Positions 1-31,221 of a stretch of DNA of 31,221 nt are shown in pieces; position 1 is the stretch's first letter; each line of letters starts with the position of its first letter. This DNA comes from Utricularia gibba. Taxonomy: Eukaryota > Streptophyta > Magnoliopsida > Lamiales > Lentibulariaceae. Location: the NCBI GenBank assembly GCA_002189035.1, contig NEEC01000172.1:1-31221 (forward strand), written 5' to 3'. The position numbers were made by a program, and so were the translations under genes. Under the pieces are notes generated by a model. It searched no databases and was not told the DNA's origin. It saw only the letters and a program-made list of their open reading frames with translations.

Positions 1-3000
1 AAGCATGTTTCCAGATTACTAACATTCATAAAGGAATTATTAAGTGCAAATGAGTGGCTCTCCACCATGTTTCTGAATCAAGAAAGCATAAGACTCTATT
101 GTCATATTCAATGCATGTAAATCACCATTACAAAATATATGAAGTCCTTACGTGTTCCCTTGTTGGCATTGTTCAGGAGATGAATTTGTCAAGGCAAAAT
201 TGTTGAATGAAACATCGCTACAAGTATTATACGAAAGAAAAAATATTGAAGGTTGCAAGTGGTGACTGAAAGAAAAGTAACTGTAAAATGTTATATGACT
301 TACATAACGTTGTCACTAGCTGAAATCCTTCTTGGTATTTTTCCTGTTAATTTGTTACCAGTTAAATACCTATTAGCACAAAACATGAAGGTTTAGAATC
401 ATAGTTCTTGAGAAAATATGATCTCAATTAAAATGGCCTGAGGGAGGCAAAGAACACTTACATGTTTTTAATTTTCTTGGGAGGAAGAGAGTCAGGGATT
501 ACACCAGTCAAATTATTAAAGCTAAGGTCCCTATGTTGATGAGCTTATACCGTGAAGATTTGAGCTAAAATGCATACTAAGGACAACATCTATCGAACGA
601 TAAGTGTTTTCACTTACAATGTTTCTAACTTGGAAAGATTTCCAATATACTCTGGGATACTGCCTTGAATAGAGCAACGCCTTAGTATCCTGTGAAAGAG
701 ATGTGGATTCAACATGAACAATTTTGGCCAGAGAGTTAAAAGAAACCAAGGACTCACAGGTGTTTGAACTCTCCCCAATTGCTTATTAAGGGAAAATCTG
801 ATACCCCTCCAACCAGATCACTGATTCGTCTGCATGGTAAACGACCGTTAAACCTATATTCACAAGTAATAATGCTCAGTAAAAACATTTGCAAGCCACC
901 TACAAGTCCTTTAATTTTTTCAGGGAAGAAAACGATGAGGGAATCGGGCCACTCAGACGGAACCTTGCAGGTACCTGTATGGTGAATGAAAGTTGCTCAA
1001 GAAGGAGCCAATCACATTCAACAGAATCAAACATGCATACAACAGGGTGATGAAAAAGCTTACAGTTTCTCAAGTTTGGTTATTCTGCCGATAAAATCTG
1101 GAACCATTCCCGTGAAATTATTGTCATTAGCCTCCTAAAATATTAAAGGGTTGCAGCTAAGTCAGAGTAAAGAAGCTTCCAATCTCGGAGGAAGAATACT
1201 AAAACCAGCAACAGAAAGACAAATCATCTGTAATCCCTGTTACATTAGTTTTTCCACGATAGTGTTGAGATGGGGGCAAGCAAAATGTACTCACAAGTCA
1301 GCCAGGGATGTCATGTTGGTTAACTCCACTGGTAGTGTCCCCGTGAAAAAATTCGATGACAGGATGCTGGAAAAGCAGGGGAAAATCAATACCTTAAGAA
1401 CCATTTACACACAGGAAGTGACATATAGCAGAACATACAGATTTTCTACGTGAACAAGAGTCCAATCTGAGGAGGAATGGATCCATGAAACTGGTTCCCC
1501 TCAAGACTCCTTCATACAAGAGGTCAGTATAAACGTATTATACCTCGGAGCAGCCTAAAAGTCTCAGCATGATGATTCACATATGAGTTTGCCCTAGCCA
1601 TGATAACAAATAAAACAATGATCACTGAAGTCTAATCATACAGGTTAAGGAGGCTGGTCATTCTTGTGAGAAACGTGGGAAACGGACCAGACAAACGGTT
1701 TCCCATGAAAGACCTGCACATAAACAAAAGGGAAATTAAATTTGGTGCTGACTTCAAAATGGGGTAGAAAGGCAGGTTGAACAAAGGGATTACAGGTTTT
1801 CCAATTTCAGTTTCCCCAATTCAAGGGTATGTTCCCACGAAAGTAGTTTCGACTAAGATCCCTGAAAGAAAAAAAAACGCAAATAAGACGATACACTTGA
1901 ATGTTTGAACAGAGTTCAAAGTCATTTGGGATGTGCCAAAATTTCAAACAGCATCATAAACAATAATTTTTAATGAAGAAGACTTACAATACTTTAAGAT
2001 AGGGCAACTTAGCAAACTCTGGTGGAACATTACCAGTCAGATTTTGTGATTTCAAAGCTCTACATCAATTCAATATGACACAGTTAGCAACTGGAATATC
2101 ATTATCATTTATGGTATAGCAGCAATATATGTGAGTCAAGTCCCACTTCCCAGTACAGTATTAGCACAAATACGCTTCTACTTCACGTAGACATTGTAAA
2201 CCTACATGAATGTTGAAGCTCATGATTCATCAACTAAAAATCCAATCTTTTAACACGGAACATGTATCTTAAACAAGAAGACTCAATTAGTCATCAGAAA
2301 GGACTAAAAGAACAAGTAGAATGACTCAAGAAAAGGATATATCTCTTTCACCAGATAAAAGAAATCGACTGATTGACTTGACGACACATACGGCAAGGTC
2401 ATGATTGACTTGGCTCAGTCAACACTTGAGTCATTCTTCACACGTTTATTGAACGCTCAGTCAAATAAGCAGGGAGATCACACAAGGACTCTATTTCCTC
2501 TACTTCTCTGTCTACAACTCACTTTTTTCATTGTCTTCTTTTTCCCAATATATCTGATTGTGGGGCGAATTGAAATGGAAGATGAGAACATACGTGTAAT
2601 TAACGTGGCAGACAGTATTTATTGCTAAACGTGCAATCGCATCGAACTTGGCTTTGAATGCTTGCACGTTGAAAGGGTAAACTCCAATTCCCTTCCCCAC
2701 TGCATGGATCCTTGCTAAAGTCCCAGTCTTCTTCCCTATACGCTTCGCAATCGCCTTCAACGCTGCCACTATCACCGATGACAAAGCAAGCGAATCAAGC
2801 AAACAACACAATCTCATGCGTACACAGAAGGTGATATCTTACGCAACAGTTAACTCTAACCCAGAAACAGAACAGAAAAAAGAATGCAAGAAACGAGCCA
2901 GGGGAGTTGCAAACACCTGACCCATTTCAAAAACTAAGACTACTGATTACCTTCGCTTGGAACAAGTTTTCCGTGGTGGCCAAGTCAGCCGATGAAGCTA

Positions 3001-3049
3001 CAACTCCGCAGAGAATCAACATGAAGCACAAAATCTTGGCAAGTCCCAT
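1..3049 (-). CDS. LRR-VIII-2 receptor-like kinase, ectodomain part, truncated by window edge and frame-disrupted
   Basis: Related to the At1g53430/At1g07650 group of plasma-membrane LRR receptor kinases. Exon 1 (2951-3049) starts MGLAKILCFMLILCGVVASS, a signal peptide. Exon 2 (2594 to about 2777) has the ALKAIAKRIGKK segment typical just before the LRRs. A ladder of short LRR exons follows: 1988-2059, 1794-1861, 1642-1713, 1439-1509, 1295-1366, 1064-1134, 904-974, 758-829, 618-689, 462-530, 304-369, 152-217. Each encodes one repeat, for example NNFTGMVPDFIG and LSGPFPTFLT. Intact exons are 72, 69 or 66 nt; four are 71, 71, 71 and 68 nt, so each has lost one base. Exon 2 has a loss near 2725 and a gain near 2618, and exon 1 does not splice into it in frame. 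The malectin-like and kinase domains are not visible; exonic sequence left of 152 is unclear. Family assignment is firm; whether it is a pseudogene or mis-sequenced is open. Confidence 0.82.
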
Positions 3050-3116
3050 TCTTCTTGTGTTTTCCCCTTAACCCACGAAAGCTGGTTCACTTGGTGAGGA
3101 GCGAAGAGGAGACTGA

Positions 3117-3125
3117 CTATATATG
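3117..3125 (-). promoter_or_regulatory. Probable TATA box of the LRR receptor kinase gene
   Basis: On the minus strand the sequence reads CATATATAG, about 70 bases upstream of the signal-peptide ATG at 3049, which leaves a short 5' UTR. Position and sequence fit a plant TATA box. No start-site data are available. Confidence 0.45.
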
Positions 3126-3249
3126 GACTGGACGCATCAAGAGTTCGCTCCCTTGTCTAGTTTTCATGGGGAAACCTGTCTGAGACTCATTCGTGATTTG
3201 TAAGTTTGGTCCCATGGTCTCTGACTCCGCGTTCTTTTGCTATTTGAAC

Positions 3250-4262
3250 ATCGGAAATAATTAATTTATGCTATTCAAAAACTAAACAAATTTAATTAAA
3301 GATGAATTTTAAGAAATTTTAAATAATTGAATATTACTGATGTCAATCATTTTTATAATAATGGTTATTATATCAAAATATTTATGTAAATAATTGGTAT
3401 TAAGTTATTGAGCATCAATTTTTTTAAACAATAGTGATTAATTTTACCAATATTTTGAAACAATGAAAACTAATTATATCCAATTTGTAAACATTGAAGA
3501 TTGTTTTTGTAATTTTTACAAAGAGTAAGAATCAATGACGTGAAAGAGCACAAATTAGTACTCTGAAAACTCTATCCTATACAGTCATATGTTTAAATTT
3601 CGAGTTTTGGTCTCTTATTTCAAAATAAAATATTCTTGAAATTTCCTCAAATTTCTATTTTGAACCCAATTAAAAATTTTCTTAAATTTCAAGCGTTGCA
3701 TTAAGAAATGGTCGTAGATTGGGTTCGATCCGGTACCAACAAGAACTGAAACCAAACACATTTAAATATTGAATTATTCAGTTTTTATCCACATGATTAC
3801 TTTCGTTTATTAATTGATTTCGGTTTTAAATAGTAACCATTTATAAATTTTTTTATTTATATTTATATTTTAAATATTAATGATCTAAAATTTCAATTGT
3901 ATTTTATTTTTGTTGAGATATAAATGATAAATTTATATTATTAACTTTAAATAATCTATGTATTTATTTTAAAAATATAATATATAATATAATCAATTTT
4001 ATAAAAAAATAATCAATTCAATTTTAAATAAACATTCATAAAAATTTAAATCGAATCCAAATCATTTATTATCAGTTCCAATTTATCGATTTCAATCATA
4101 ATAATAATATCTTATCCATCCACATCCCTAATCGCACCCCACCCCGTCATCACTTCAAACCCTACACGGAAAATGCAATTATTGAACGGGCCCACTAAAA
4201 TGGCTGAATTGGTCAATGATTGGCTAATACAAAATTAAGATTATATACATATTACAAAACCA
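3250..4262. other. AT-rich intergenic DNA
   Basis: This stretch between the LRR gene promoter and the 3' flank of Elongin A is strongly AT-rich, with many runs of A, T and TATATA-like words. I see no long open frame with protein-like composition, no tRNA or rRNA, and no terminal inverted repeats that would define a transposon. Confidence 0.6.
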
Positions 4263-4822
4263 CTAGCTGTTATTTATTTGTGAAACAAATCTGAAACGGT
4301 TTACGAGAGACGTAGGCCATGGAATGCACCTATTCCTAAGACATGGAGCAGGCAGCATATGATCGATCGAGATGAAGCAATGCTCGCGCCTTCGCGAGGA
4401 CGAGGAAGGAGATTTGATGCATGATGGTCGTGATTCCAACTCTGGGACCAAAAGAAACCCGGGAGAAGATTCAGTTGCACGGCTTGGACAATGTTTGTGT
4501 CCCATTAGGGATGGAAACGAAACCCCACAACTGCTTAATTGCTTTTCATGCATCTGAACCGGTTGCTTTGCACCTGGTATGTGTATACACAGTGTGTTCC
4601 TTGTGTTTGAATCATCCATGGTATAAGCACCGATACAGAGAGAGAAATAGGGCTGAGCGTCAGTGGAATCTTCTCTGGGGCGGCTTGATATACTTGAATG
4701 ACGATGATGATGATGAAGACGGAGGGGGAGGCGGCTTCACACTTTTGAAGGAAAAGGGCAGCGTAAGAATGCGTTAACCAAGAATAAAATCATATGGGTG
4801 ACTGTACTTGAATTGAGGATGG
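4263..4822. other. 3' flank of Elongin A; no recognised gene
   Basis: Open frames of about 118 codons exist on both strands here. Neither has a recognisable domain, and the plus-strand frame ends in a low-complexity run of Asp, Glu and Gly (about 4698-4735) made by a GAT microsatellite and a G-rich stretch. The minus strand has AATAAA-like words (TTTATT on the plus strand near 4272) that could be a distal poly(A) signal for Elongin A. I do not call a gene. Confidence 0.4.
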
Positions 4823-6491
4823 CTAGTACCTGCTGCTGTTCCTGACCACCGGATTCTTCTTCAGACTGGCGAGATTTTTCACCTCACGGCTGTAAAAAAC
4901 CAGTTCCAAAGGGGTAAGGAGTCAGAGATACGCAAACCCTGTTGATTATCATTTATAAGAGTTTCTCAGGGATGCAATAAGTATCACAAACAAAAAAGAA
5001 AAACCAATGAATGCATGCACAGTTTTCAAGATGAGAAGTGAATAACATCATGACCGATCAATCAACAGTATCGCATCCACACGTGCAAGAAATTACTTAT
5101 TCCAACAAAAACAAACATCATAAGAAAAAGCAGGCGATGTCATCAAATTAAGTGATAAACTTATGGAGAATGGTCCATTTCCCAAGGAAAAAAACTCTGA
5201 TGGCAGGTGGGCACCGGAAAGTCAAGTGATGAATTGTTCTCTGTGGATCCTCTCCCCATGTCTGGGAAGAGAAACCATCAGTTGGTTGCAACAACCAATA
5301 AGAACATACGCAGACTTTTATTGGTTTTGACACCACTTTCACTATGTTAGTTAAGGTGTCTTCTGGTAGAAGGCAAAGCATCCACCACAACAGTACTCAA
5401 ACACGCTCGCATTTTTTATACCAACCCTTCTTATGTCTGATCAGTGCACCAGCATTCAATGCACGGACATGTAGTTTTAAAAGGTGAAATTTCAAGATTA
5501 AACATCAACGTAGAGAAACATCAAAAGAAAGGTAAATAGCTTCTAGATCTTACCAGTTGACAAATTCGCCTTGCTTTCTTCATCAGTGAACTTTTGGTAT
5601 CATATGGGCTGCCTATATAATTTGAAATCACATTTGAGTCAATCCAATACGTTTACTCAAGACATAAAATGACCCTTCAACAAGCCAAGTTACATAGGTA
5701 CCTCCAAAGTATCTTTTAGAGCCACTGGGAGGGACTTTGTTGCAAACCTGAACTTGTCGACTCATTTTCTCTGCAACAATACATCGTTAAAAAAACCTAT
5801 CTAATGTCTTAAAAACTTTTGCTTCATGCTTTGTCATTGGTGGCCACCTAAACAAAGTGAGCAAAGGTCTTGAACAACCTTTATCTTAATAAGCGACTGT
5901 TTCAAGAATTATGCGAAGATGAAATTGAGAGAGAAGAAGCAAGTGAATCACACTTACTAGCACGCTCTTGCTCATAATGTTGTTTTAAACGAGCAAGTGA
6001 ATCTTCTGTCATCTTCTCCCTCTCCTCCAATTTTGCCTGGGGCAATGCGAAGCCAACATGAACTACCAAGGAACATTCACAACTTGACTTGCAAACTGAC
6101 AAACGAACAAGTACCTCGTACAATTTCCGCCATTTAATGTTGACTCTTTTCTGCTTCATTCTCCCAACAACAGCATTCATGCTCTCCTTTCCAAACTGTG
6201 ACTCGTAAAATTTCTTCCACAACTTATCAGTAACAGGGCTAAGATCTCTACCCTGAAAATGGAACACACTTACTGACACAACAATGAAAAAGAACCCAAC
6301 AAAAATCAGATATTTCGAAACAAAAACCTCACCCTCGTACTGTCCTCGATATGCCTCAACTGATCGAGTGTACAATGGGACAGAAAGCGATCCAGGAGAT
6401 GATTTTCAGTTTCCCCAACATCTCCAAGAAACCTAACATTATCTATCGCCACCTGAACACAAAGGTCGACTAACGAAGGCAATTTCTGCAT
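4823..6491 (-). CDS. ELOA: Elongin A (transcription elongation factor SIII subunit A)
   Basis: Nuclear RNA polymerase II elongation factor subunit that binds Elongin B/C. Six exons: 6333-6491, 6115-6252, 5958-6036, 5702-5770, 5554-5612, 4823-4889. The start MQKLPSLVDLC carries a BC-box (S-L-x3-C-x3-A) in LPSLVDLCVQVAID, followed by the F-box-like Elongin A core with LGDVGETENHLLDRFL and RDLSPVTDKLWKKFYE. A charged helix (EEREKMTEDSLARL), the conserved SRQVQVCNKVPPSG and the tail REVKNLASLKKNP follow. An ATG two codons upstream (6497) is also possible. Phases agree at all junctions except exon 5: the conserved reading after KKAR (EFVNC) is in another frame and needs two more bases, or one fewer, near 5567-5575. 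The last exon joins in phase only in the corrected frame. The corrected protein is about 190 residues. Confidence 0.88.
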
Positions 6492-6499
6492 ATTCATTT

Positions 6500-7512
6500 C
6501 CGCTGTCGAAAAATCAGAATCCAACATCAACACACAACATTTACCCCTAAAAAATCGTAATTCGCCACACAAATCGTCAAAGTTCCCCAAGAAAAGAACT
6601 GAATAAGCGCTGGCACAATACCACTTGTAAGATCCAAGTTGCGGAAGGATCGATCGGAGGATGATTTCGATCCGAAGGGAGTGAAATCGAAATCAAGACT
6701 TGTCCTTGCCTAACCGGAATCAACACCTGTGCGGATATTTACCAAAAAGGCATTCACTTTAGATTTTTGTTCAAAACTTTGGAAATTTTTTATCCAAGTT
6801 ACTAAAGTTGAATAAAATCAAATATCACCCCATGGGAACAAAATAAAATATTTTTCTACCTCCTGCATAAATATAGTAAATTTAAATCAATATATTTTAT
6901 AGTATTTATATGGTAACAATTTAAAAAAATGGTTTCTCACGGTGTGAATCTTGATTGAACTAACAAATAAATCAAATCAATATTTATGTAGATATCATAA
7001 AATATATTTAATTGATAAATTATAAATATCATGAAAAATAATCTATTCATAAAAAATGATTATATCCCTACTATTTTATAATATAAAATAGCAAATGAAT
7101 CATGAAATATATAAATTTCACCATAAGACCTAAGAGATAATTCACATACACTAAAATTAAGAATATTAAATTTCAATATCAATTCTTTATAAATCTTAAC
7201 ATGGTATTTATTATCATTTACTACCAAACACATACTTATGTCATCCATTCTCTGTTAGTTTCAATTTCAAAAATTAGATAATTAGTTGCATTAATTAATT
7301 GATTAATAATGCAAAACATGGTACTAAAGAGACTGGTTAGTAAACAACTTTCTTTAGAAGTCCAGTGTCTCAGCTGCTGCTGCTCCTCCTCGCCTCACTT
7401 CTAAATCCAATCTGCTGAATTGCTCCTCCAGGAGCACTCAAGTTAGCACATGCATTGCATTCCGAGAGTCAAAAAACAAGTGTAGAATGCTGAGTACACA
7501 CTCCTCTGGTCA
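6500..7512. other. Intergenic: Elongin A 5' flank, AT-rich DNA, PRP4 3' UTR
   Basis: About 6500-6730 is the 5' flank and probable 5' UTR or promoter of Elongin A. About 6740-7330 is very AT-rich with no supported gene; the 62-codon minus-strand frame at 7060-7248 has only AT-driven composition. About 7340-7512 is the probable 3' UTR of PRP4. Confidence 0.5.
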
Positions 7513-9651
7513 TTAATCTACGTCCATTTCCTGCTCCTTCTCAGATTGCCTGCTGGTCCAGATCTTGATGGTCCGATCATGTGAGACGGATGCAATGAAT
7601 TGCCCATCTGTGGAAACATACAGAATCAGCGTATGAACAAGTTTTCAACCAGCAGTAGTTTAAGAGGATGAGTTTGGGAATCCTTGGGAGATTAGAGCGC
7701 ACCTCCCATTGCATCTATGGATGTAACTTTGGCCTCATGACCGGAGAGTGTCCTCACAGGCTTGAAATCTCTTGAAGACCAGATCTGGATATGAAAAGAG
7801 CAGCATGTTGGCAAGAGCATCGCCAAATGGATGTTGCGGCAAAAAAGCTATAAATGCACACCTTAACCGTCATGTCGTATGAAGATGTAATGAGAAAGTA
7901 CCCTTCCTGAGGTTCGTATTTGACCTGAGAGATGAGGTTGGAATGAGCAGGTATTATGGAGAGGCATTTTCTCTTCCTCAAGTCCCATATTCTGCAGGAA
8001 TTATCTTCGCCACCGGTAGCTAGATGATAACCGTTTGGAGAAAAGTCGAGACCAAGGACCTGAGAGCAAAGGGAGATATAAGCATTTCCCTACTAGAGTG
8101 TGGAGAACAGAAGCAACTAAAGAAAAGGGATTTTACAGGCTTGACATGGCCTTCCAGAACAAGAATACTTCTGCCGGATCTCAGATCCCAGACACGAGCG
8201 AGAGCGTCAAGCCCACAAGATGCAGCTAAGGAGCCATCCTGATGAAAACATATTCCATAGACACTCTACTATGACCTTCCTGGAGAAGCAACTCGTCACC
8301 TGTTTCTACATCCCATAATCTCCATGTTCTGTCAAAGCTTGCTGTGCCTAAATATTTCCCTGTAGGATGAAATGCAATACGAGCCAAGCGATCCAGATGC
8401 CCCTGAAATGTTCTCAAAGCTGATCCCTGGGTACTCCACAGTTTTGCACTTCTATCAGCAGAAGCAGTCGCCAGTTGGGTTCCCAGTGGAGAAAATGCAA
8501 CATCAGTAGCTCGTTCAGTATGCCCCTTCAACTCAGAAACTAGCTTTACCCCAGGCATGCTCCACAGCTTTGCAACCCCAGTTAAAGAGCTAGAAACAAG
8601 GGGATGATGAATCCCATCAGCTAATGAGAATAGCTCGTTACATACAGCAAATATGAAAACATAACACAGCTAAAACATTGCATCTCAAGTTAGTGGACAC
8701 ATACAATCACATCTATAAAAAGGTATCTGCCAATTTTAACAAAAAACTAAAAAAATACCAGGTTGCAAGAGTCTTTCCATCATGTGAAACTGAACATCCA
8801 GAGAGGGGCCGATCGTCACCGATCTCACTGCATTCCAGGGCAAGCGTTGAAGCATGTTTCAGAGCCCAGTCTATCTCTGCATCTAAATCCTCATCAGGAT
8901 CATCTACTCTACGCCTCGCACGATTAAGGCGCTTTGCAGCCTTTACAAGCGAATACTTTGCAATTTCTCTACGAGCCTCTAGTAGTGCTTGTGAACCTTC
9001 AGTGTAAAAGGGGTATTGTATATGTTCTTCAGGTTCTTCAGATAAAGCGGAAGCTGTCGTTTCTTCATCCTCATGTGCCTTCATAAGCTTTTCAAGCTGC
9101 CCTTCAGAATCGAGCTTTGCCATAAGGGCCCGCAACCGATCACGTCTCTCCATCTCCCTCTCCCCAAAGAGAGTGATAGGTTCACCAAGACGCCGAAGCC
9201 TAGCACAGACTGCACTATCATTGGTAGGAACAGCCAAAGCTGCTGCACGGCGCTTCATCATAAGCTCCTGCACAGCTTTCTCATTCCTCTCTCTAGCCTG
9301 TTTGCTCTCTTCAGAGATATGATATTCCTGCGTCGACCCTTTAGAAGCACGGCTTGGCACCGACTCTTCATGCTCAGAATTGAAGTCACTACTTCGAATA
9401 TCCCCATTCCGAACAAGAGGAGAATTGACCACCGGGTTCCGAAGAGGCAATGGTGCCAAAGGCCTTGGGACAGGAGGGGGAACACCTGGTATGGGAGCAA
9501 TGGGAGGAGGTACGGCAGGCGTTGGAGCAAAAGAAGCGACAACATCACTACTGGGCGCTGAGACTGCATCAATTTCAGTAGCGTCATCATCAACGGTTAC
9601 AGAGGTCTGCGCGGCTGAGCTAGCGACGGGAGTTTCCTCATCGACGCCCAT
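7513..9651 (-). CDS. PRP4: U4/U6 small nuclear ribonucleoprotein PRP4-like (LACHESIS-type) WD40 protein
   Basis: Spliceosomal U4/U6 snRNP component; the Arabidopsis orthologue LACHESIS also affects gamete cell fate. Exons: 8759-9651, 8137-8589, 7862-8059, 7703-7784, 7513-7607. Exon 1 encodes a Pro/Ala-rich N terminus, then the PRP4/SFM motif region ([20 protein letters not shown] and [19 protein letters not shown]). Seven WD40 repeats follow, for example [40 protein letters not shown] and [12 protein letters not shown], ending in MDVD. A probable 5'-UTR intron spans 9656-9886 (CACAG|gtacgg to ggtag|AAAAATG). Exon 2 is 453 nt where 454 is needed: one base is missing near 8261-8268, between GHSR and [11 protein letters not shown], and the raw frame then stops. 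Corrected length is about 573 residues, close to the family. A disabling mutation in this essential single-copy-type gene is unlikely, so a sequencing deletion is the better explanation. Confidence 0.93.
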
Positions 9652-9889
9652 TTTTCTACCAAGAACAACAAAAGCGAAAACCCATAAAAATCATTCTCTT
9701 AGTTCCAGAAATTCAGCATTCAAATGGATAAAAAATAACGTTTTCGCTGATTCTCAACAACCAAATCAAGCATCTCTCTCTCACTAGAAATGAAAAATTC
9801 ACAGAGAACTCCGAGCCAACTTCCAAAATTCATGGAGATTAACACCAAGCACTAAGAAAACTCGCGCGTGAACGCAAACACCGTACCTG

Positions 9890-10953
9890 TGCTTGCCGCC
9901 GTCGAGGACACGCAGCCGTGAAGCAAAGTCCACTACCCGGTAAGCAAGAACCGATTATTCTCCGTCTGGTTCCCTGCAAGTGCACAGAGTCATCTACCCA
10001 GAACCCCCACAATGCAAAAGCTAGCCCAAATAAAGCCCATCAAGCTTACCAGTTAAAATTCAAAGCATCGGCCCAAAAAATGTAAAAGATGGGCCTCAAA
10101 TAAGCCCATTAATCATACACATCTGATTATTGCCAAAAAGTGTATGACTGTAGAAGGGATGAATTTATTTTAAAATTGACTCGATTTTGAGCAGAATAAA
10201 AATTCATGATGAGGTGTTTTTTTAATATATATATTTTTTCGAAAAATTCATATATAAGAATGCTATAAAAGATAGTTTCGTTACTGAAATTGGTTACTGC
10301 TCTTACAGGTTAATTAATTAATTAAAGGGACTCTCTGGACTAGGACGACTCTTCGCCGTCCGTCGTGATTAGATTTCAGCGGCGACTTTTCGCCGCGGTA
10401 CGTCTTGCCCTGGTCGTCGATGGATTCTTCAACAGATCTTTAGGAGCGCGTCCGTAAAGACGACTTTTGTGCTTCCTATTTGAGGGGATTGCTCGATAGA
10501 ATCCAATTTAGGGTTCGTTAAAGCATACGATCATTCGCATTTAAGCTGTCCTCGTTGTTCAAATTTGCGGGGGAGGTATCTAGATGTTTTTGTTCTTGTA
10601 TTTTCATATCTTGATATATCCTGATTGATGCTCCAATTTTGACACTTGGATCGTAAACTTTTCAGATGATTGAGTAGAAAAATAAAGGAATTTGAAAGCG
10701 TAATATTCACTTATAGGTATTTTCTGTGGCTTTGAGGTGTCAAAGTTAAATTCTTTGTTAAACTACATTCATGTTTTTCCAGCGTATTTTGTCTGAGATC
10801 ACATTAGTCTAATTCTCTGATTGTTGTGAAGCCTACATTTTAAAATTACCTCTTGTCGCGCTCCAGTCAGTCAGCCGAGGCATTGAATATATGCTCGTTC
10901 TTGGGAACCATGGTTATTTACGTTGACTAAAAAGCTGTATGTTTTACAAGACA
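9890..10953. promoter_or_regulatory. Shared divergent promoter of PRP4 and SYP5, with GGCCCA/TGGGCC (Site II-like) elements, and SYP5 5' leader
   Basis: The two genes are transcribed away from each other. Between them, 10020-10112 holds a cluster of GCCCA words in both orientations: agcccaaata, aagcccatca, cggcccaaaa, gatgggcctc and aagcccatta. GGCCCA/TGGGCC are Site II/Up1-type elements bound by TCP factors and typical of plant housekeeping promoters. From about 10330 to 10953 lies the probable 5' leader of SYP5, GC-rich near 10340-10420 and likely containing a leader intron whose borders I cannot fix. Confidence 0.5.
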
Positions 10954-18668: not shown

Positions 18669-18862
18669 TTGACTTGACTTGACTTGATTGTGTGGAGCAG
18701 CTTGAAGATGACGACGTTTGTGGGCCCTCTGTAGCAGACTTTTTCTTATTTTGGTATTTTTAATTTCAAAAAATATTTACATACAAACAAAAACTGTCCC
18801 ATAACCAGGCACAAGTCCGTAATTTGGGAGGGACCAGTCGAAGTCAACTCAGGTCAAGTCAA
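18669..18862. promoter_or_regulatory. Two opposed W-box clusters upstream of HSP70
   Basis: TTGAC occurs three times in direct tandem at 18669-18683 on the plus strand. GTCAA (TTGAC on the minus strand) occurs three times at 18843-18847, 18853-18857 and 18858-18862. TTGAC is the core of the W-box bound by WRKY factors. The clusters lie 137-330 bases upstream of the HSP70 start codon. Confidence 0.5.
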
Positions 18863-18869
18863 TATTTGG

Positions 18870-20102: not shown

Positions 20103-20876
20103 ATGAGCGGTGCTGATGCAGCAAACCCTAATAACTCTCCTCCCCCAGAGACTTCCCCTCCGCTCAACAAGAGGCCAAGCAAGGGAAAGGGAGGTCCCGA
20201 CAACGGGAAATTCAGGTACAGAGGGGTGCGCCAGAGGAGCTGGGGAAAATGGGTGGCGGAGATCCGCGAGCCCAGAAAGCGCACGCGCCGATGGCTCGGA
20301 ACCTTCGCGACGGCTGAGGAAGCGGCTCGAGCCTACGACCGTGCCGCGGTTGTGCTGTATGGGTCCAAGGCTCAATTGAATCTTCAGACATCTGTTGCTG
20401 GTACTGGCAGGAGCGGAGGCGGTGATGCCCGGGAACGCGCGTCAAGTTCCTCGTCCACGCAGAGACTACTGCGGCCCTTGCTCCCTCGGCCCTCGGGGTA
20501 CGGGCTTACGTTTCCGATGCCGACTCCGCCGTCTTCGTATCCTGCTGCGCCAGCTTCGCGGCCGTATGAAATGACACAAGGGGAAGCAGCGGCGATGAGG
20601 GAATGGTCAGAAACTGCTGTTCCGTTCCAAAACCCTAATTCCAGCTCCGGTTGGCAAGAAGAGAATCCTCAGCAATTCAGCAACTATCATGGTTATGATG
20701 AAATGAGCCCACTCGCTCCCCCCGATCCCACACAGGCGCCACCGCAGTCGGATCCCGCCGCGTTGTTGAACGGAGGATATACCAGTTGGCCGCCGTTCGG
20801 CAATGAACCCGACGATGGGTATCCATCAAATAGCATTTGGGACGACGGCGATCCATTCTTCTTCGACAACATCTGA
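20103..20876 (+). CDS. ABI4: ABI4-type AP2/ERF transcription factor (DREB A-3)
   Basis: Nuclear transcription factor of abscisic acid, sugar and seed signalling. One exon, 257 residues, typical of ABI4. The start at 20103 lies in caccATGAg and follows the family; no in-frame ATG lies upstream within the open frame. An S/P-rich N terminus leads to the [20 protein letters not shown] segment and an AP2 domain (about residues 37-95) with [20 protein letters not shown] and [20 protein letters not shown]. The Ser-rich stretch followed by [13 protein letters not shown] matches the motif behind the AP2 domain in ABI4. The C-terminal end is acidic and aromatic ([14 protein letters not shown]), as in the ABI4 activation region. 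GC content is well above the neighbours. The frame is clean. Confidence 0.92.
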
Positions 20877-22385
20877 ACATGGCCCAGCTTATTTGTAATT
20901 CTGCTTAGGCTTGCGAAGTTGCAGAAACCATTCAATTCGTGAGATCGATCGATCAATCAAGCCACCGTCGAGAATGCTTGCAGGGCCAGGCAAGGGAATG
21001 CTACTAAAACTTTCTGTTTCAGTTGCTTAATGAACAGTCAGTCATTTCAAGTTTTCCAGACAATCCCATTGAAAATTTCAAGTACGAGCTTATCTATACT
21101 TGATAGAGCGTGCGTTCTCGAACAAAGTATCCCCAGGGCATAGCTGAATCTGTTGCACGGCTCATCAATGCGAAGCCTAGTGCTAGTTTCCTTGTTCCAT
21201 CTTATTTCTTAGTCTCAAAGTTCACCTTCCCATTTGTATGAAAAAGATGCTTGTTTGAACTTGGAAGTGAATAGAGGTTAACGGCATAGCTTCTGGGTTC
21301 TTGTACAACAACAGCACAGCACTCAAGAAATTCTGTTGCTCTTCCGACGAGACATGGGAAGGCTCGAAGCACACAACGAACTTCTGCCGAGGATGCCATA
21401 TAGGATTTCCAACCTTACAATGGTTGAGTTGGGTTTTCCTGATGCAACGTTGATTGAATCGTCAATTGATATGCAACACTCAAAATATGACTACAACTTG
21501 ATTGTTTGTTGAAAAGTAGGATCATTTTTTCTAAAGATCACATTCTAAAATTCCATGAAATGAAAACACCCCGATTTGTTTTCTGCGTGCAATGAAAGAA
21601 CGCATAATAAGCTCAACACACCCCAATGCTCGCCTTCTTTGGTATGATTCTGAATTGAAGGACTGAAACATCCCTTCGTCTTCTTCGATCTGATGTGTAG
21701 TCCCCGTGATTCCTCGAGTAGCTCGTTGGAGGAACCGCGTCATGGCATTTGGCAGCAAACCCGGTGGCGGACGCTTCTTTGCAACAGGGTTGGTTAGCAC
21801 CGGCTCAGTGGAACACAAATCTGTTCATTGCAGAGGCAGCGGCTCTCAACTTTAATAAGCAAAAACCGTCACCTCCAGTCTCCGGTGCCGCCGGTGGTCT
21901 CATCGGAGTTTCTAGTGGTACTCAAGAAAAGCGCTGGAAAAAGGTTGCAGTTATGTAGGCATGAACAACATGGGCAAAACATTGCATGCACTTGAAATAA
22001 AAAAATATATTTAAAATATAGAATTTAATTATATAAGATTATAAATATTCCCAAATACGCCTCGAAATATCCTAAGTTTTTAAAGTGATAATATTTTGTT
22101 GCACGGACAAAGGGGTGGGTGAAGTTGGGACGGAGGAATGTGATGAGAAAAGACGATATTACCCTAACACGTGAAGATGTTGTGGCAGGTCAGGAGGGCA
22201 TTATTTATACAGACAGGGAAATTGACACTAATCATTTTGGCGTCGAGGGCTCCGCTCTGTGTTTCGATTGTTTATTCAATTCTTGATTTTCTTCTTTCAG
22301 CAGATTTGATTCGGAGATCCAGTTTGACTCTTCTTTTGGCCTCTTGGGATTGTGGTTTTTGAGAATTGGATCTGGGTTTGAGGTG
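20877..22385. other. ABI4 3' flank to DUF212 promoter; no recognised gene
   Basis: The ABI4 3' UTR follows 20877. A minus-strand open frame at 21531-21743 (MTRFLQRATRGITGTTHQIE, 70 codons) has protein-like composition but matches nothing I know. A plus-strand frame covers 21749-21958. About 22000-22080 is AT-rich. TATTTATA near 22203 could serve the DUF212 gene. None of this supports a confident gene call. Confidence 0.35.
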
Positions 22386-23977
22386 ATGGCCGGCGGTGAT
22401 GCGGCTGCGGCTCTCAGCGCTTCTGTTGCCCCGGCGAATCTGCCTCTCGTCTCCGCCTTGCTTGCCTGTGCTATTGCGCAGTTTCTGAAGCCTTTCACGA
22501 CTTGGTAATTTATTATGTACAATTTTGAATTTTTTTTGTTCCAGTGGAATGTCTGATGTTGATTGATGTGTTTCGTGGAGTATCTGGGCGCGCTTAGCGG
22601 TAGTTTAATGTCGTTGCATTCGCGTGATTTACGATAAAGATTGGTTTTTTATTATTGTGGGTGAATTGGAAGTAAGTTAATAGTTAATGTGTTGAATATC
22701 CTCGCATTGAATGGATTTGTGGACACTAGGGGAAGGTTGATACTTGATTGTTTTTTATTATTTATTTTTTCAACACCTATGGTGGATTGTTAACCGGAAA
22801 ATGGTTTTCTTTCGATATTCGTCTTTGCAGTTGGGAGTTCATTTCTCTTTATCGTATGATGTATCCCTCTTAGACTTGCAGGGTGAAGGATAAAAAATGG
22901 GACTCTAGAAAGATGGTCAGCTCAGGAGGTATGCCTTCTTCACACTCTGCGACTGTTATAGCTCTTGCAACGGCAATTGCCTTGGACGACGGAATTGGAG
23001 GAGCACCATTTGCCATTTCTGTTGTCTTGGCATGTATTGTACGTACTTTCTAAACCAGGTTCTCTCCATTCTTTAGCATTTCGAGTTTGCTTCTACCAAG
23101 GATGTTTCCTTAAGTTCTAGTCACAACACATGTGCTTCTTGTGTCGTGTGTTATTTTGTTTCTCCATTAGGATTTCATTGATGTTTGGGTTTTTTAATAC
23201 TTAATCAATTTGTACAAGAGTAGAGGGTTCGTGGTAATTTTCTCATAGAAAAACATGTTACATGGCAATAGTCTTTTCATATGCTTCCATACTATATTTG
23301 ACAAAACTGACTGTGAGAACCGCAGGTAATGTATGATGCTACCGGCATCAGACTCCATGCTGGTCGTCAAGCTGAGGTGAGGTCTCATGTAAACAGGATC
23401 CTTCATGTACCCCATGTTTTTTTTTTCTGTAGCCAGCGTTATTTTTGGATTGGTTGTTAATACAGTTGCTGAACCAAATTGTTTGTGAACTACCACCGGA
23501 GCACCCCGTTGCTCATGTAAGGCCTCTTCGTGATTCTCTTGGCCACACCCCACTTCAGGTACGCTTGTCAAATATTTCATCTTCAATCCTTTTTCATTGT
23601 TAAAAAAGCATGCTAGTATAACCCCTTTTGGTTATTTGATATGAACTGGTGTTTTCCCAAGGAAATGTTCTCAGGCCTGGTGTCAGAATGATGTGTATTA
23701 TGCTATCTCCCCAAGCACCTAGTATTTCAATTATTGTTAATACACACCTCTTTGTCAGCCAAACCTGAATATCTGTTAAAATGAATAGCTGCTCAGCATA
23801 TAAAGACATATTTTGATCTTCGGGTTTCTCCTATACCCATGCTTTCCTCTGCTAAATGGTAGAGTTCATACGAAAGCCTAGTTAGTAAAACACCGAACCT
23901 TTGTTTTGTTTCCACAGGTGGCAATGGGCGGGGTGCTTGGGTTTGTAGTTGCACTTCTCTTAAGAAGCACAGCATAG
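22386..23977 (+). CDS. DUF212 family membrane protein (acid phosphatase/vanadium-dependent haloperoxidase-related)
   Basis: Belongs to the small plant and bacterial DUF212 family (At1g67600/At3g21610 type), distantly related to PAP2 phosphatases. Exons: 22386-22504, 22882-23038, 23326-23376, 23466-23558, 23918-23977; all phases agree and give 159 residues. The N-terminal membrane segment is LPLVSALLACAIAQFLKPF. The signature SSGGMPSSHSATVIALATAI follows, then a second hydrophobic stretch (APFAISVVLACIVMYDATGI) with GIRLHAGRQAE, HTPLQVAMGGVLGFVVALLL and a short polar end. The conserved PSSH resembles the PAP2 phosphate-binding motif. The biochemical role of the plant proteins is not settled. 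No frame damage. Confidence 0.9.
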
Positions 23978-24430
23978 CATGAAGGATATGTCAACCTATA
24001 GGTCTTTGCCATCTTGATCTTCTATTTTTGTTGATCATCATCGTCATTAAGGATAAGTATTTTGAAGCACCAAGTATTTTGGAAGTCAGTGTATTAAAAA
24101 CCAACCTGATATTGTGGGCTTTTTTACATGCCAAAACAAGATTTTCTTATGTAACATAATATATTGGGTTTCCTCTTCCACTAATCTGAAACCATGAACT
24201 GACTGATTCGTGAGTTTGTTCGCTCAGTTACCTGAACGCCTTTTTCAAAACACTGGTTTGAACTACTTGCTTAAAGAAGAAACTGAGGCTGGTTATGATG
24301 CCGTGAAAGCCTTGAATGAGATGGGAAATAAACGAGTTTGAAGGCCATGGATTTTGCCATTTGCTGGATGGCCTAATTCGGCCAAATCAAGAGAAAAGAG
24401 AAACAAACAAACTACTTGGCGAATCTGTAG
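23978..24430. other. DUF212 3' UTR and intergenic spacer
   Basis: No gene is seen. The first 150-200 bases are the probable 3' UTR of the DUF212 gene; the rest is the upstream region of the next gene. Confidence 0.5.
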
Positions 24431-24438
24431 TATATAAA
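24431..24438 (+). promoter_or_regulatory. TATA box very close to the start codon of the DUF761-like gene
   Basis: tatataaa lies 26-33 bases upstream of the ATG at 24464. Transcription normally starts about 25-35 bases downstream of the box, so the leader would be nearly absent. Confidence 0.45.
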
Positions 24439-24463
24439 GCAGCTCTCATTGCATTCGGTTCTC

Positions 24464-25008
24464 ATGGAGAAGGTGAAGTTCACCCAGCTTTTGAGGCGTC
24501 TCCTGATGCCACTGCTTCTCATCCTCACACACGTAGTGCCAACATCAAGATTCAAGAATTCCCACTTCCTCCTCATCATGGCTCTCGGGGTAGACTCGTG
24601 CCTCATACCCTTCATTTGGTTCGGAGACGACAATGGCGGACATGCTGCAGATCATCAAGATGCACCATATGTTGGCGCTGGTGATGGTGATATCAAGAGC
24701 GATGCTCCAATAGAAGGGACCCAAGGACCCAAAACCAAAATGGGGTTGGGAACGGGTAAGTGTTCAAGGGATGACATTTTCATGCAACTGGAGGGGGAAA
24801 ATCTGCTCCAGCACCGGGAATCGTCATGGTAGAAGACTGTGAGAGCAGGCAAGAAGATGAAGAGGATGATGGTGATGATAACAAGCTTGACAGCGCCGGC
24901 GACCAAGAACTGTTTCAGAGAGCTGAGATGTTCATTGGGAATTTCTACAAGCAGCTGAAGATGGAGGAGAGAGCATTCGTTAGAGAAATCCATGACATGA
25001 GCTTCTAA
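24464..25008 (+). CDS. Small plant membrane protein with DUF761-like C-terminal motif, one frameshift
   Basis: Plant-specific protein of unknown function. It starts MEKVKFTQLLRRLLMPLLLI with a hydrophobic N-terminal segment, then SRFKN, a second hydrophobic stretch (LLIMALGVDSCLIPFIWF) and an acidic linker. The raw frame stops at 24830 (RESSW then TAG). The overlapping frame from 24826 carries the family signature ELFQRAEMFIGNFYKQLKM, which in related proteins forms the C-terminal end. One missing base near 24822-24826 restores a single protein of about 181 residues. Single exon. The hydrophobic start with an acidic linker and DUF761-like end fits a known uncharacterised plant family; the assignment is moderate. 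Confidence 0.7.
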
Positions 25009-25569
25009 GCACTTGTTACTTTACGACCAAAACCACCTACCTACATAACCTTGTACACAGTAAAATTAGTAGGACTTTTGAATGTCCCATGAACACAGAC
25101 AAAAATAAATTGAGCAAAAATTAGTCTAAATTTAAACTCTTGCTACTGATGTCTTACCTTTCTGTATAGGTTAGAATTGCGATGACACGATATATTATAA
25201 ATCGTGATGATTTTTACTGTTCATAATACATCATTTCGAAATTAGTTTCCAATGATCATTCTCATTGAGCCATGAATGATTAAATAATATTTTTAAATAT
25301 TTTTCAAAAAATGATTTCGAAAAAGTGATGCTCCATCACTCTCACGAGTTAATGATTAATTTAAAATTATATCAAACAAAGATTAGGATTTAATTATAAA
25401 AATTAAAGGTCATTAACTAGTACAGTACAATCTAATCTCACTTCCAAACTACCAAGTCCAACTCGTACGGAAACGAACGAAGCATCAGCAACACATCACC
25501 AGTACAACCCATTCCGGCACACTGGAAGTGGAAGGAAGCTCTGTTGTATTCACAAGCATCATCATCCCT
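25009..25569. other. Convergent intergenic spacer
   Basis: The 3' UTRs of two convergent genes, the DUF761-like gene (+) and RMR (-), flank AT-rich DNA. No gene or repeat is seen. Confidence 0.5.
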
Positions 25570-27613
25570 TCAGCCCTCGCAGCCCGGCAGCGAGTGCGCC
25601 GAGGTGTAGGGCGAGAACGTCCGGCGGACTCGCTGTAATGCAGAGGATTCGTTCGGGCCGACTCGCTGTACTGCAGAAGATTCGTCCTGACCGACTCGCT
25701 GTAATGCAGAGGATTTGGGACGTAGCTTGAGGACGCTACATAGCTGGATGATGCGTTGCCGACGCCCGGAGCATACGGGATAGGAATCTTGAGCTGGAGT
25801 TCAGTGGCGATGAGGAAGGATAGCCGAAGGACTGAGGTGAAGCTAGATAAGCACTGTTCAGTCTCTGAGAAGACATGTTCCTGAAGCTGGATGCAGAGGC
25901 AGAGGGATGAAGGGAGTGACCAGAGTGGCGGCTGTAAGATGCTCCGGTGATCGAAACAGAGCGGGAATGATGCGATGGCTGGTTGATACGGAGGGTTGCT
26001 GAAGATGCAACAGAAGATGGAAGTGAAGACAGAGAAGCTGCACTGGAGCATAGCAAAGGGGTGGATTCTGATGCTGCTGGTTCACCATCTCTACTTCTTG
26101 CATCGTGCTTGCAAACCGGACAAAATGTTCTCCATGAGGTGAGCCAATCATCAACACATACAGCGTGGAATTCTGGTACACAGGAAACTTTGTTAGACTA
26201 GGAAATGTAAGAGCACTGGGAAAGGTGAAGAAGGCTCACTGTGAAGGCATGGCAGAATTCTCAGCTTCTCCCCGACTGTATAATCCTCAAGGCATATAGC
26301 ACACGTTCTTGAGGTGCTTTTATCCTCCACAACAGCTGTAAATCTGAGACTTGGCATGGCCTTCACTAAGCGATGGCTCATCCCATGGAATTCTCGCACA
26401 TGCGAGGCTCGAGGTTGTTCTCTTCTTATTCTATGTCTTCGCACGAAGAAACACGTGGCTAAAACAGCAGACATGGCCAGTAAAGAAATGAAGGATATAG
26501 CCATAATAGACCATGCAGAATTATCAAATGTTGGGACTATCCATAGCACTGCATCTGCTGAGAGGGCATATTTTGCAAGTGTTTCGCCACAAGTTCTTGA
26601 AACAAATACAGCATTTATCCTAACACCAGCAGAACTTCCAGCCACTGCATTTAAATGTGAACTTCAATTGCACCCTTTAAGTAGATAGACATACAAAGAA
26701 TTAAAGCAATCAGCATTCTCTTGAAACCATGGTTTCTTGAAACATTTAACGTAGAATAGAAGCCAAAATATAGGTTTTAAATTTCTTCCATTCCCTAATT
26801 TCAAATAGCAGCACTCTTATTTTAAGATCATGCAAATCCATGTAAATCTATAGAGTCAACAACAAAGCTTCTAGACATCAGGATCGTAGGCTATGACAAG
26901 AATAATCATGGACAAATAAAGATAAACGTTTCTTAAGTTTCTACATATAAAAATCAACAGAAAACTAAATCTGAAAGAGTTCACAGTACAAGAATATTAC
27001 TTGCAACCAGGTCATCATTTTCGTTGTTGTAGATAATAGCAGCTTTGAATCCTGCAACTTGAGCATTTCGAACTTTATCCTCAAAGCTGCATCCTCCTCT
27101 AACAATCAACACGAAAGGGGATATTGAGATGTTCGTATTCAAAATATTTTTATTAGAAAGTGGTGAGCATGCATCTAAAGGTTCTGCCAAATGCACTGTT
27201 CCACATATTCCAGAACCTTTCGTCACTGGAGCTGCGAAGAGAGGAGCTTTCATCAGTTTTTTTTTGGCGATTATAAGCATTACAAGACCATTTTAATCCG
27301 CATCTTTCATCACTGCATATGCAAAAAGCCTTCCTATATAATGGGAAATTTGAAGTAATGCATGTAGAGAGGACATGTTTGGCGATGTAATGAAGTACTT
27401 TCAACAATCTAGACATGAATCAGAAAATATTTCAAAATTACTACATCAGGGAGAAAAATGAACAAAATAATAACGAGAACACTAACCAAAATTGGCTTCT
27501 ATATCACTGAAAGATAAATTAATGTTTTTTCCAACGAGGACCACATTAGCAGAGGCCTTGAATGAAGTTGCTAATGTGAAAAGGGATACATAAAATAGCC
27601 ACAGACTGAACAT
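25570..27613 (-). CDS. RMR: RMR-type vacuolar sorting receptor (PA domain, transmembrane, RING-H2)
   Basis: Receptor homology region-transmembrane-RING-H2 protein, a sorting receptor for protein storage vacuoles. Exons: 27487-27613, 27001-27231, 26240-26644, 25570-26172. The signal peptide is [20 protein letters not shown]. The lumenal PA domain includes [36 protein letters not shown] and [11 protein letters not shown]. The membrane segment is [21 protein letters not shown] basic cytosolic stretch leads to the RING-H2 finger CAICLEDY...[16 protein letters not shown]...CPVC and a Ser-rich tail. Two bases are missing in the tail, near 25785-25792 and 25613-25622; with both restored the tail ends [15 protein letters not shown] and the protein is about 455 residues, the family size. 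The upstream ATG at 27700 would precede the signal peptide with a charged leader, so 27613 is preferred. Confidence 0.9.
25627..25716 (-). repeat. 33-bp tandem repeat in the RMR tail
   Basis: Three consecutive units, the last partial (25627-25659, 25660-25692, 25693-25716), differ by a few bases and start gactcgctgta on the plus strand. On the coding strand they encode 11-residue units: [20 protein letters not shown] and LHYSESAG. Confidence 0.7.
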
Positions 27614-29541
27614 GGTGAAGAGTTCAACTTTCCAATAGCAGCCCCTTTTTTCCTGGAAACGATCTTGGGTGAATCTACAGTGCAACTGAAAACATCCCAA
27701 TGTACAATTCAGTTTCCTTTTGATTTAGGATTTTCTGAACCAAAAATTCCATGTCAAAAGAAAGAGAAATAAAGACATGGAATTCTCTCAGAAAAGACAA
27801 ACCATTCTCCGCGTATCCAGAAAACAAAAAAAGGGGAACGGAAAAAGAAAAGAAATAACCAAATTCATGGATGAATCAAATAGTAAGATAATGTGCTCCT
27901 AACTAAAGAAATAATTCATCTCTAAAAGGAGCTCCAGTAAATTACATAATTACATGCATGTGCCAGCATTCTTGCCTTTCAGTTCATAAGAACTCAAGAA
28001 TCGATTAAAAATCAATTCTGGGAAGAAGCAGGCGTCAACATTTTATGAAAATTTTACTCGAGGGCTCAAATTAGCAAGAACATGATGTGGAAGAACCAAA
28101 TAAGCAAAATCTATCTAGTATCTACTTAAAAGAACTGCAACAATCGAGATATCCTCATCTACAAAGTAAATGGAGCCCCTTTACTTGTATACGGAACCAG
28201 CAAGAAGTGAATCTTGGCCAAGTAAAAACGTTAAAATAAAAAAAATCCAACGTCATTTCCCCATCTCTGAAACCTCCAAAAAAATCCCACACAGGCCGGC
28301 CAGTCAAACTATAAAGCAGAAAAACATCATTTTGAGATGCTCAAGAAAATTACCTTCGCTCAACTTAATATCCAAACCAAAACGAGGGGTCGAAGACAAC
28401 AAAAACACTTTCCAGCCTACAAGACATAGCCCATTTCAGATCTTCCCGATAAGGCGTTGCTTCTCACAAAAATACGACGTAACCGACCGGAAACGGTCGC
28501 CTCAATCACTCGATCCATTGGTTAGTTTCCGCTTGGGCTCACAGGCTTGAAAGTTTCAGTAACTCGCATGAGGGCTCAGATGAGAGTGAAAAGAAATTGA
28601 AAATTAACTCAAAGGCTGTAATGGGTGGCTGTGGTTTTGGTTTTTGATTTGGGTTCCGTCTCTATAGGTTCAAGAAAACGAAAGCAAGCCAACTCAATAC
28701 CGGGATGACAGGCAATCCTTGTGCGGTTATAGGATCAAAACGTGCCTGAAGATCGAGACCAACCGAGAAGAGTTGCCGCTGTTGCGCCTACGCAGAGGAA
28801 AAGGAAAGATTTTGATTGATGGGGCCATTGTCTCTGATCTTATCACCTCCTCTCCACCATTCTCCTTCCTGCCACTTGAACGATGATTAAGAAAACCAAA
28901 AACATGGTACAGCCAGCACACCCACTCTTAATATTATTTCCATTTTTAACAAAATATTTTATAAACATAAGGCCATCAAATATTATATATAAAAATTTGA
29001 GATTGCATTAAGTTTAAATTCTTTTAAAATATAAATTCGTTATTTGAGTTAACTATTTTTTGTTTTTTTTTTTATAAAAATACCTCAAAACATATTTTTT
29101 TAAAAAATGAATGATTAAAATATAGTCAAATAATTACATATCTTAACAGAGAGAAGCATATTGTATTGGAAAATCTTTATTATGGAACTTATACTCAATT
29201 TTTATTCAAAATTATAATATTCCAGAGGATATCTTGATTAGTGTTGTCACCCAACACTAATCCTTATCTTAGAGAGGGGCATTTTGGGAAGTCGGTTCCA
29301 GGATATGTTCTACCAACAAAAAAAAAAAAAAAAAGAAAGAAAAAGAGGGAACCAGCGCATCTTGTAATGGGCATCACTGAAAAAGGAATATGCGATTTTA
29401 GGTTGAAACAGATACTATGAAAACGTGTGACTCGACAGTGGAAGGTGAGAAGAAAGCATGCAAACAGACTTCAATGAGAGACAAGGCATTCACTAGCAGG
29501 GGATTGGATGGTCCGGGGAGAAGGAAGCTCTGCTGTTGCCA
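27614..29541. other. RMR upstream region, AT-rich DNA and RGP1 3' flank
   Basis: About 27614-28900 holds the RMR 5' leader and promoter, probably with leader introns I cannot place. The open frames at 28170-28550 (+) and 28727-28921 (-) have no recognisable domains. 28930-29230 is AT-rich. A perfect hairpin lies at 29236-29262 and a poly-A/GAAA tract at 29319-29346. From about 29350 the sequence is the 3' flank of RGP1. Confidence 0.45.
29236..29262. repeat. Perfect 11-bp inverted repeat with 5-base loop
   Basis: gattagtgttg, loop tcacc, then caacactaatc. It lies in intergenic DNA between RMR and RGP1, and the arms are perfectly complementary. Confidence 0.6.
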
Positions 29542-31221
29542 CTACAAAAACAACCGTCTGTTCCGGGCTTGCGCCGCTCCTTTCACTGTAGAGGGTGCGT
29601 GGACGGTGATCGGGAGAACCCACTCGCTCCTGTCCCTCCCTTCTGTTAGCAGAGGGTGCTCCATCCTGCAAGTGGTCATCACGGCATCACACACGAATCA
29701 GAAGAAGGTTCAAACAATGGAGGAGACCCAAGCAACTTTGAAGAAGGGATACATGCCAAAGACAAAAGTTTCGAGGAGTTGCAATGAAAATAGTTCCAAC
29801 AGGACCCATGGAAAAGCATCACAACTTACCTTGAACTCTTTACATTCTTTGGGGTTGTCACGAACTCAAACCTAAGAGACCACTCCACAGCAACATAGCG
29901 GGTTGAAAATGTCGTAGGCCCATCCATTGGAATGGAAAATATGAAGCTAGTTTGCAGTAAATCCGCCACAATCTCGTGGTGATCACTATAAACCTACGAT
30001 CAGAAAGGTGCAAGTTAGCGAAGTACTATTGCTTTTGAGGAATCCAAATTTTCAATGCTCCATCCTGTACACGGCTTAAAAAAGGAATCTTGAAGTTGGA
30101 TATTAGTTCATTTTAACAGGAATTTTTAGGCAAACCCCAAGAAAAAAGCTACTAAAAGAAAAATATTTTAATACTCGCTAGCAGCCTGAGCTACTTGTTC
30201 AAATTATTGGAGAATCAGGATATTTGTGTTTTACATCTCGAATATCACGTAAATAAAAAATGGTAATCTGTTGTGAAAAGCAACGACATCAACATGTAAC
30301 TCGTAAATGAGTGATAGAGAGAACAAATTGTAAAAACCTTTGTAATAATTGGAGAATGCCTTCGAGATGGATGAACAAATTGCCTGTTTATAATCTCCTT
30401 TGACTCCAATGTTATAAACATCTAACAGAACCAAGAACCTCATCAACTCCCTGATATTCAAAAAAGAATTATTCAAATATAGGTTGCATGAACTGTACCT
30501 CAAGACACTGCCTAGCCCCTTCTTCATGGAAAAAGGTCAAGGTTCCACCTATCTATGAAAAGTGGAATTAGACTGAATCAGGTAGAGCAATGACTTCAGC
30601 AAATGGTAATGTATTATGAAGCTTTACCGTATCACTGAAATAGTATGTGGAATCTGGATTTTTAGGGGTAAACCTCAAAAGTACCCGATTATCAAGCCTG
30701 ATATTGTACGATCTTCCTCGAGCAATGACTTCTGCTGAAGAAATACTGAACGAAAATTAATATGAATCAATGGAAGCAACGAAATACGTGAGACTGTAAG
30801 AACAAAATTACATGTTCCGGAGGAAACAGATTCTGAAGGCGGGGGATATCTTGAGTCATCTTCAGCAAATGGGCTTTTCTTATATTCTTTCAAGGGTTGA
30901 CTTGCGAGAATTATATTGGCAGCCTTATCTGGAAGAAGCAAGAAGAAAAGAAGATAATCAGAAGAAATTTGCAATTGCTTCAGATGGCTCCAAGTAAATC
31001 AGACATTGAAGCCAAAGTTACAGTTCACCTGCACCAGAATCATCCAGGATCTCAGTCACGGACAGTCGGGGAAGAGCTACACTACCCCGGCCTTCTACAT
31101 ATAAACCTCCAGTTGAAGACCTTGCATTAAATGATTGTAACGACAGGAACTTCCAAATGCCCTATTTAGGTCATCCTTTGAAGGGTTGTAGGAAGAAACT
31201 GATGAGATCTCATCATGTGAA
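29542..31221 (-). CDS. RGP1: RGP1 homologue (RAB6A-GEF complex partner 2 family), C-terminal part
   Basis: Rgp1 family protein, partner of Ric1 in the exchange factor for Rab6/Ypt6 at the Golgi. Exons: 31029 to beyond 31221, 30812-30928, 30628-30745, 30499-30552, 30338-30421, 29830-29993, 29542-29665. In order they carry SSYNPSKDDLNRAFGSS and STGGLYVEGRGSVALPRLSV; ILASQPLKEYKKSPFAEDD; SSAEVIARGRSYNIRLDNRV; IGGTLTFFHEEGARQCLE; NRQFVHPSRRHSPIITK; DGPTTFSTRYVAVEWSLRFE; and MEHPLLTEGRDRSEWVLPIT. The protein ends NRRLFL. Two single-base losses are seen: near 31129-31134 in the first exon, and at the 30812/30745 junction, where phase 1 meets an exon needing phase 2. The remaining junctions agree. 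The N-terminal part lies beyond the right edge. Confidence 0.88.

Follow-up and report, generated by a model that had tools for sequence, protein, structure and literature searches.

Contig NEEC01000172.1 (C241) of Utricularia gibba is analyzed here over its entire length of 31,221 bases (the window), as one of 516 contigs in an assembly totaling 100,091,633 bases. Most of its genes appear to be broken by shifts of reading frame, among them a leucine-rich repeat (LRR) receptor kinase, Elongin A, PRP4, and RMR and RGP1-like genes, and the question is whether the plant has lost these genes or the sequence has lost bases. An initial annotation, made from the letters of the window, had favored uncorrected long-read deletions over real gene loss. 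We compared C241 with a second copy of the same region found elsewhere in the assembly, and the open frames of that copy support the proposal at 10 of the 15 sites that had been named. We put the probability at about 95% that C241 is a side-path contig and redundant, with thin support at its ends and uncorrected long-read deletions in its sequence. The broken genes of the window are thus probably mostly intact in the plant, and the damage an ordinary assembly artifact.

When the PRP4 region was used as the query in a search of the assembly contigs, a single other place was found, in the 3.55 Mb contig C304. Likewise, queries with 850-3060 and 25,600-28,600 returned C304 as the sole near-identical other place. 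The match covers 29,288 of the 31,221 window bases, on the opposite strand, and falls into two blocks that flank a structural difference:

1-13610, matching the minus strand of C304: left block, 99.6% identical to C304.
13611-15543: segment of 1,933 bp without a counterpart at this place in C304, which has 5,487 bp instead.
15544-31221: right block, 99.8% identical to C304, with substitutions absent after 16,496.

The comparison is between two assembled consensus sequences. Over the aligned bases we observed 30 substitutions and 43 insertions or deletions (indels). Single-base indels make up 41 of these 73 differences and longer indels two. The window is the shorter copy at 27 of the 43 indels (26 by one base, one by two) and the longer copy at 16 (15 by one base, one by three). 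As the initial annotation had noted for several of its sites, the affected bases tend to lie in homopolymers or doubled bases: 36 of the 41 single-base differences are in runs of at least two identical bases, where 49% would be expected (p = 2e-7), and 16 of the 41 are in runs of at least four, where 9% would be expected. The left block holds 14 substitutions. Between 16,497 and 31,221, a distance of 14.7 kb, there are 10 single-base indels and no substitutions, as expected if the same DNA had been consensus-called twice.

To place these differences relative to genes we used an exon mask over 34.7% of the aligned bases, with approximate limits for RMR, parts of HSP70 and two genes that we take to be syntaxin-like and DUF212-like. 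Thirteen of the 43 indels are coding, a share that shows no depletion relative to the masked fraction (p = 0.33 for depletion), and they lie at 959, 1127, 1825, 2618, 2729, 2967, 5566, 8265, 9402, 20142, 25623, 25777 and 31146. Only four coding substitutions separate the copies. With an open frame as the criterion of polarity, 12 of the 13 coding indels are losses (10 in the window and two in C304) and one is a gain; except for the gain, at 2618, the open frame is that of the longer copy. The exons concerned are as follows:

904-974, minus strand: LRR exon; window one base short at 959, C304 exon 72 nucleotides and open.
1064-1134, minus strand: LRR exon; window one base short at 1127, C304 exon 72 nucleotides and open.
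1794-1861, minus strand: LRR exon; window one base short at 1825, C304 exon 69 nucleotides and open.
2594-2768, minus strand: LRR-kinase exon 2; window short by one base at 2729 and long by one base at 2618, C304 open throughout.
2951-3049, minus strand: LRR-kinase exon 1; window lacks one base at 2967, C304 reads through into exon 2.
5554-5612, minus strand: Elongin A exon; window lacks two bases at 5566, and in C304 the frame is open as far as the stop codon.
8137-8589, minus strand: PRP4 WD40 exon; window one base short at 8265, C304 open.
8759-9651, minus strand: PRP4 first exon; open in the window, C304 lacks one base at the position corresponding to 9402.
20103-20876, plus strand: ERF (AP2) gene; open in the window, C304 lacks one base at the position corresponding to 20142.
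25590-26172 (low end approximate), minus strand: RMR last exon; window one base short at 25623 and 25777, C304 open.
31029-31221, minus strand: RGP1-like exon at the contig end; window one base short at 31146, C304 open.

The initial annotation had named 15 sites, counting 30812/30745 as one. C304 differs from the window at ten of them and is open in frame at all ten, four are identical in C304, and one, in a gag-like piece, has no counterpart there. The ten comprise the losses proposed in the LRR exons at 904-974, 1064-1134 and 1794-1861, near 2725 in exon 2, near 5570 in Elongin A, near 8265 in PRP4, near 25617 and 25788 in RMR and near 31131 in RGP1, together with the gain near 2618. The shortfall at 2967 in LRR exon 1 had been missed, as had those of C304 at 9402 and 20142. 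Because C304 is the broken copy at these last two coding sites, we rejected the idea that C304 can be taken as correct throughout. Errors like those of the window occur in it as well, so neither contig alone gives all genes intact.

In C304 the LRR kinase is open from the start codon across the first five exons and again across exons 7-11, its LRR exons are 69 or 72 nucleotides long except for that at 1439-1509, and its reading of exon 2 resembles exon 2 of a tandem paralogue. This LRR receptor kinase paralogue lies at C304:2261273-2262618, beyond the window's kinase gene. The spliced Elongin A model has no internal stop in C304 and one stop in the window, and the C304 model matches Pfam Elongin_A at 82.4 bits (cut-off 29.8). 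Since 5566 falls beyond this match, the C304 reading at that site is supported by its open frame and by the splice sites. For RMR, a RING match in the exon preceding the site (zf-RING_11, 29.2 bits; cut-off 27) is the sole support here for the name that the gene had been given. The name RGP1-like was likewise taken over from the initial annotation, with no Pfam match behind it, and neither the RMR last exon nor the RGP1-like piece matched any Pfam family.

PRP4 is a splicing factor gene that is expected to be essential. The C304 reading across 8265 aligns residues 5-102 with residues 318-415 of human PRP4, equal lengths with no net gap, and a shorter C304 piece aligns residues 2-56 with human residues 353-407, again with lengths equal. 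When the first exon of the window was used in a protein search, C241 returned it as one piece and C304 as two pieces in different frames. The same search found no third PRP4 place at E 0.001 or better in the assembly, from which stretches of the genome may be missing. Thus PRP4 is broken at both places found, at different positions, and each copy is open where the other is cut. It is difficult to see how the plant could live if both breaks were real and neither an error.

The places at which the window is short are not spread evenly along it. Their density rises with distance from the structural difference, from 0.2 per kb within 5 kb to 0.5 per kb at 5-10 kb and 2.15 per kb beyond 10 kb (rank test, p = 8e-5). 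The outer 5.6 kb of each end together hold 24 of the 27 window shortfalls (p = 7e-8, with the limits chosen after the list had been seen). The shortfalls of C304 over the same alignment show no trend with distance (p = 0.28), and six of the 16 are at the ends. This crowding of shortfalls at the contig ends fits a side-path contig that owes its continuity to reads across the structural difference and has few reads covering its ends.

We looked for the same pattern in a control drawn from four small contigs, C239, C240, C242 and C243. One of these, C242 (29,727 bases), likewise matches C304, and it makes up the whole of this small sample. It was compared up to base 24,980. The alignment is in three pieces that total about 25.1 kb, 78 bases of which enter the count two times, and it contains 20 substitutions and 51 indels, with C242 shorter at 31 and longer at 20. 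Counted by hand, its first 8.35 kb hold 24 shortfalls, four gains and one substitution, so that in C242, as in the window, the shortfalls are concentrated at a contig end. C239 and C240 were set aside because their candidates were too numerous to score. C243 was dropped as a control because it is a satellite array and says nothing about consensus errors: C243:1-10000 is a tandem satellite in which segments about 160 bases long have many matches across C222-C224, C227 and C229.

The duplication, the differences, the identity of the open copy at each coding site and the clustering at the ends are observed directly, and the following sequence of events would account for them. C241 would be a second consensus of a region already present in C304, presumably kept separate by the assembler because of the different structure at 13,611-15,543. 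Read support would be thickest around this structural difference and thin at both ends. There, the consensus would retain the deletions of what we infer were raw long reads, most of them single-base losses within short runs of identical bases. Such deletions would break the frames of the LRR kinase, Elongin A, PRP4, RMR and the RGP1-like gene on paper only.

Several results weigh against this explanation. The bias toward deletion that had been claimed is clear at the 13 coding sites, at 12 losses to one gain, but two of these losses belong to C304, and over all 43 indels, most of which carry no polarity, the imbalance of 27 window-short to 16 window-long differences is not significant (p = 0.13). 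A Pfam WD40 scan fails to separate the two PRP4 readings, which score 74.3 and 74.1 bits as pieces of unequal length. C304 is not an independent truth and may share both reads and errors with C241. In C242, the hand count past 8.35 kb gives seven shortfalls, 16 gains and 19 substitutions, a reversed balance that ties the shortfall to the ends of small contigs and not to small contigs generally. Finally, both contigs share the following two lesions, a coincidence that independent random error would seldom produce:

1439-1509, minus strand: LRR exon; 71 nucleotides in both contigs, one base short of the tandem paralogue.
16502-18530, minus strand: HSP70 copy 2; both contigs lack one base near 17,783, where the adjoining copy 1 in C304 is open.

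Lost bases had been proposed at both of these sites. The LRR exon, 68% identical in DNA to the tandem paralogue, is indeed one base short of it, but the same is true of C304. HSP70 copy 2 is one base short of copy 1, as claimed, but not in the run of five G that had been singled out: the missing base is just after this run, which is the same in both copies. These shared lesions may be recent real mutations or consensus errors common to both contigs. That they are real mutations, a reading that concerns these two sites only and is compatible with the explanation of C241 as a redundant contig, has in our estimate slightly less than an even chance. Their presence in both contigs speaks for it, and downstream of the HSP70 break the nonsynonymous (dN) and synonymous (dS) divergences between copies 1 and 2 are 0.067 and 0.118, values that suggest weak constraint on the coding sequence; moreover, an open copy 1 adjoins copy 2 in C304. 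Yet copy 2 remains open for 426 codons downstream of the break, and its best score against solved HSP70s (484.6 bits) equals that of copy 1 (485.0 bits), with copy 2 falling 1.3 to 11.1 bits below copy 1 for the five other listed HSP70 chains. The kinase part of the LRR gene also has long open stretches in C304, and an error common to the two contigs could explain both sites.

The two tandem HSP70 copies differ at three of 438 bases over 17800-18240 of the window and at 94 of 1,278 downstream of the break. The near-identity at 17800-18240 suggests recent gene conversion.

If the window were instead a real decaying haplotype, with frameshifts in several genes and an intact copy on the other chromosome, a structural difference from C304 would be no surprise, and 13,611-15,543 supplies one. 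This segment consists of pieces that match many dispersed places and includes a cut gag-like piece whose Pfam scores are under the curated cut-offs. The frame break that had been claimed in gag is uninformative about errors because the segment lacks a counterpart at this place in C304 and the nearest relative of that part is 82% identical. Instead, C304 has 5,487 bp at about 2238515-2244001, where the rest of HSP70 copy 1 lies, along with a fragment that shows about 90% similarity to a portion of the ERF gene. Rfam searches at gathering thresholds and a tRNA scan gave no matches in the window.

Sixteen of the 30 substitutions crowd into 15,560-16,496, beside the structural difference, and none is found in the next 14.7 kb. 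This cluster may be a true allelic difference or the product of conversion from a paralogue.

Both the structural difference and this cluster, part of which may be allelic or paralogous, would suit a decaying haplotype, and so would the 14 further substitutions in 1-13,610. The lesions, however, are not confined to one copy, given the breaks of C304 at 9402 and 20142. Indels exceed substitutions and are equally frequent in coding and noncoding sequence, the 14.7 kb with 10 indels and no substitutions leaves the lesions there without accompanying substitutions, and the shortfalls are clustered at the contig ends. We therefore regard a decaying haplotype as highly improbable. A narrower proposal is that a real alternative haplotype lies beneath the layer of errors, in which a replacement of 5.5 kb by 1.9 kb, linked to a mobile element, would cut HSP70 copy 1 of the tandem pair. 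If the shared break in HSP70 copy 2 were also real, this haplotype would be without an intact HSP70 of the pair. We consider this possible, although the odds are against it.

For two of the sites identical in C304, no lost base is needed, as a predicted intron would keep the frame:

24464-25008, plus strand: DUF761 gene; a candidate 56-nucleotide GT..AG intron at 24756-24811 would keep the frame; identical in C304.
30645-30929 (outer ends approximate), minus strand: RGP1-like exons; a candidate 77-nucleotide intron at 30735-30811 would keep the frame; identical in C304.

The DUF761 candidate has the ends GTAAGT and CAG and joins both frames, and on the strength of frame and splice-site ends it is the likely cause of the frame change for which a lost base near 24824 had been proposed. 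Fifty-six nucleotides is short for a plant intron. The lost base proposed at 30812/30745 in RGP1 is likewise dispensable, the 77-nucleotide GT..AG intron being the likely, though predicted, cause. That most of the breaks are such misread introns or frames, with no bases lost, has a negligible chance of being right, because a direct base difference and an open C304 frame refute it at ten of the 15 sites, however likely it is at DUF761 and at 30812/30745. The opposite extreme, that all 15 sites are errors, was also rejected, with two sites assigned to frame-keeping introns, two the same in both copies and one without a counterpart.

The pattern in the window resembles two known features of long-read assemblies. 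PMC5632298 names InDel errors among the error classes of PacBio-based assemblies. The window is like the residual indels of long-read-only assemblies in that the differences are single-base and the coding ones are mostly losses in same-base runs, regardless of gene function, and unlike them in that its errors crowd heavily toward both ends of a single small contig. Haplotigs are described, in the same source, as secondary haplotype contigs. As in haplotigs or bubble contigs, a short contig here nearly repeats a portion of a long one, and the two differ in structure in mid-contig. In contrast to them, the right side is without substitutions far from the structural difference, and the alternative structure is a candidate haplotype. 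For Utricularia gibba itself, a review (PMC5793159) describes a long-read assembly made with HGAP at 88x coverage with a contig N50 of 3.4 Mb, and PMC10663240 gives a genome size of about 82-100 Mb.

What is added to the description of this locus is that C241 is redundant, that C304 speaks against the window's reading at ten of the named sites and is likewise in error at two coding sites, and that five of the 15 sites first listed are to be struck or set aside. A gene that lies on a small redundant contig of this assembly can seem lost or pseudogenized, and counts of gene loss or gene duplication in which contigs of this kind are included would be wrong. When the assembly is mined for gene loss, duplicate contigs should be taken out first and single-base indels checked against accurate reads.

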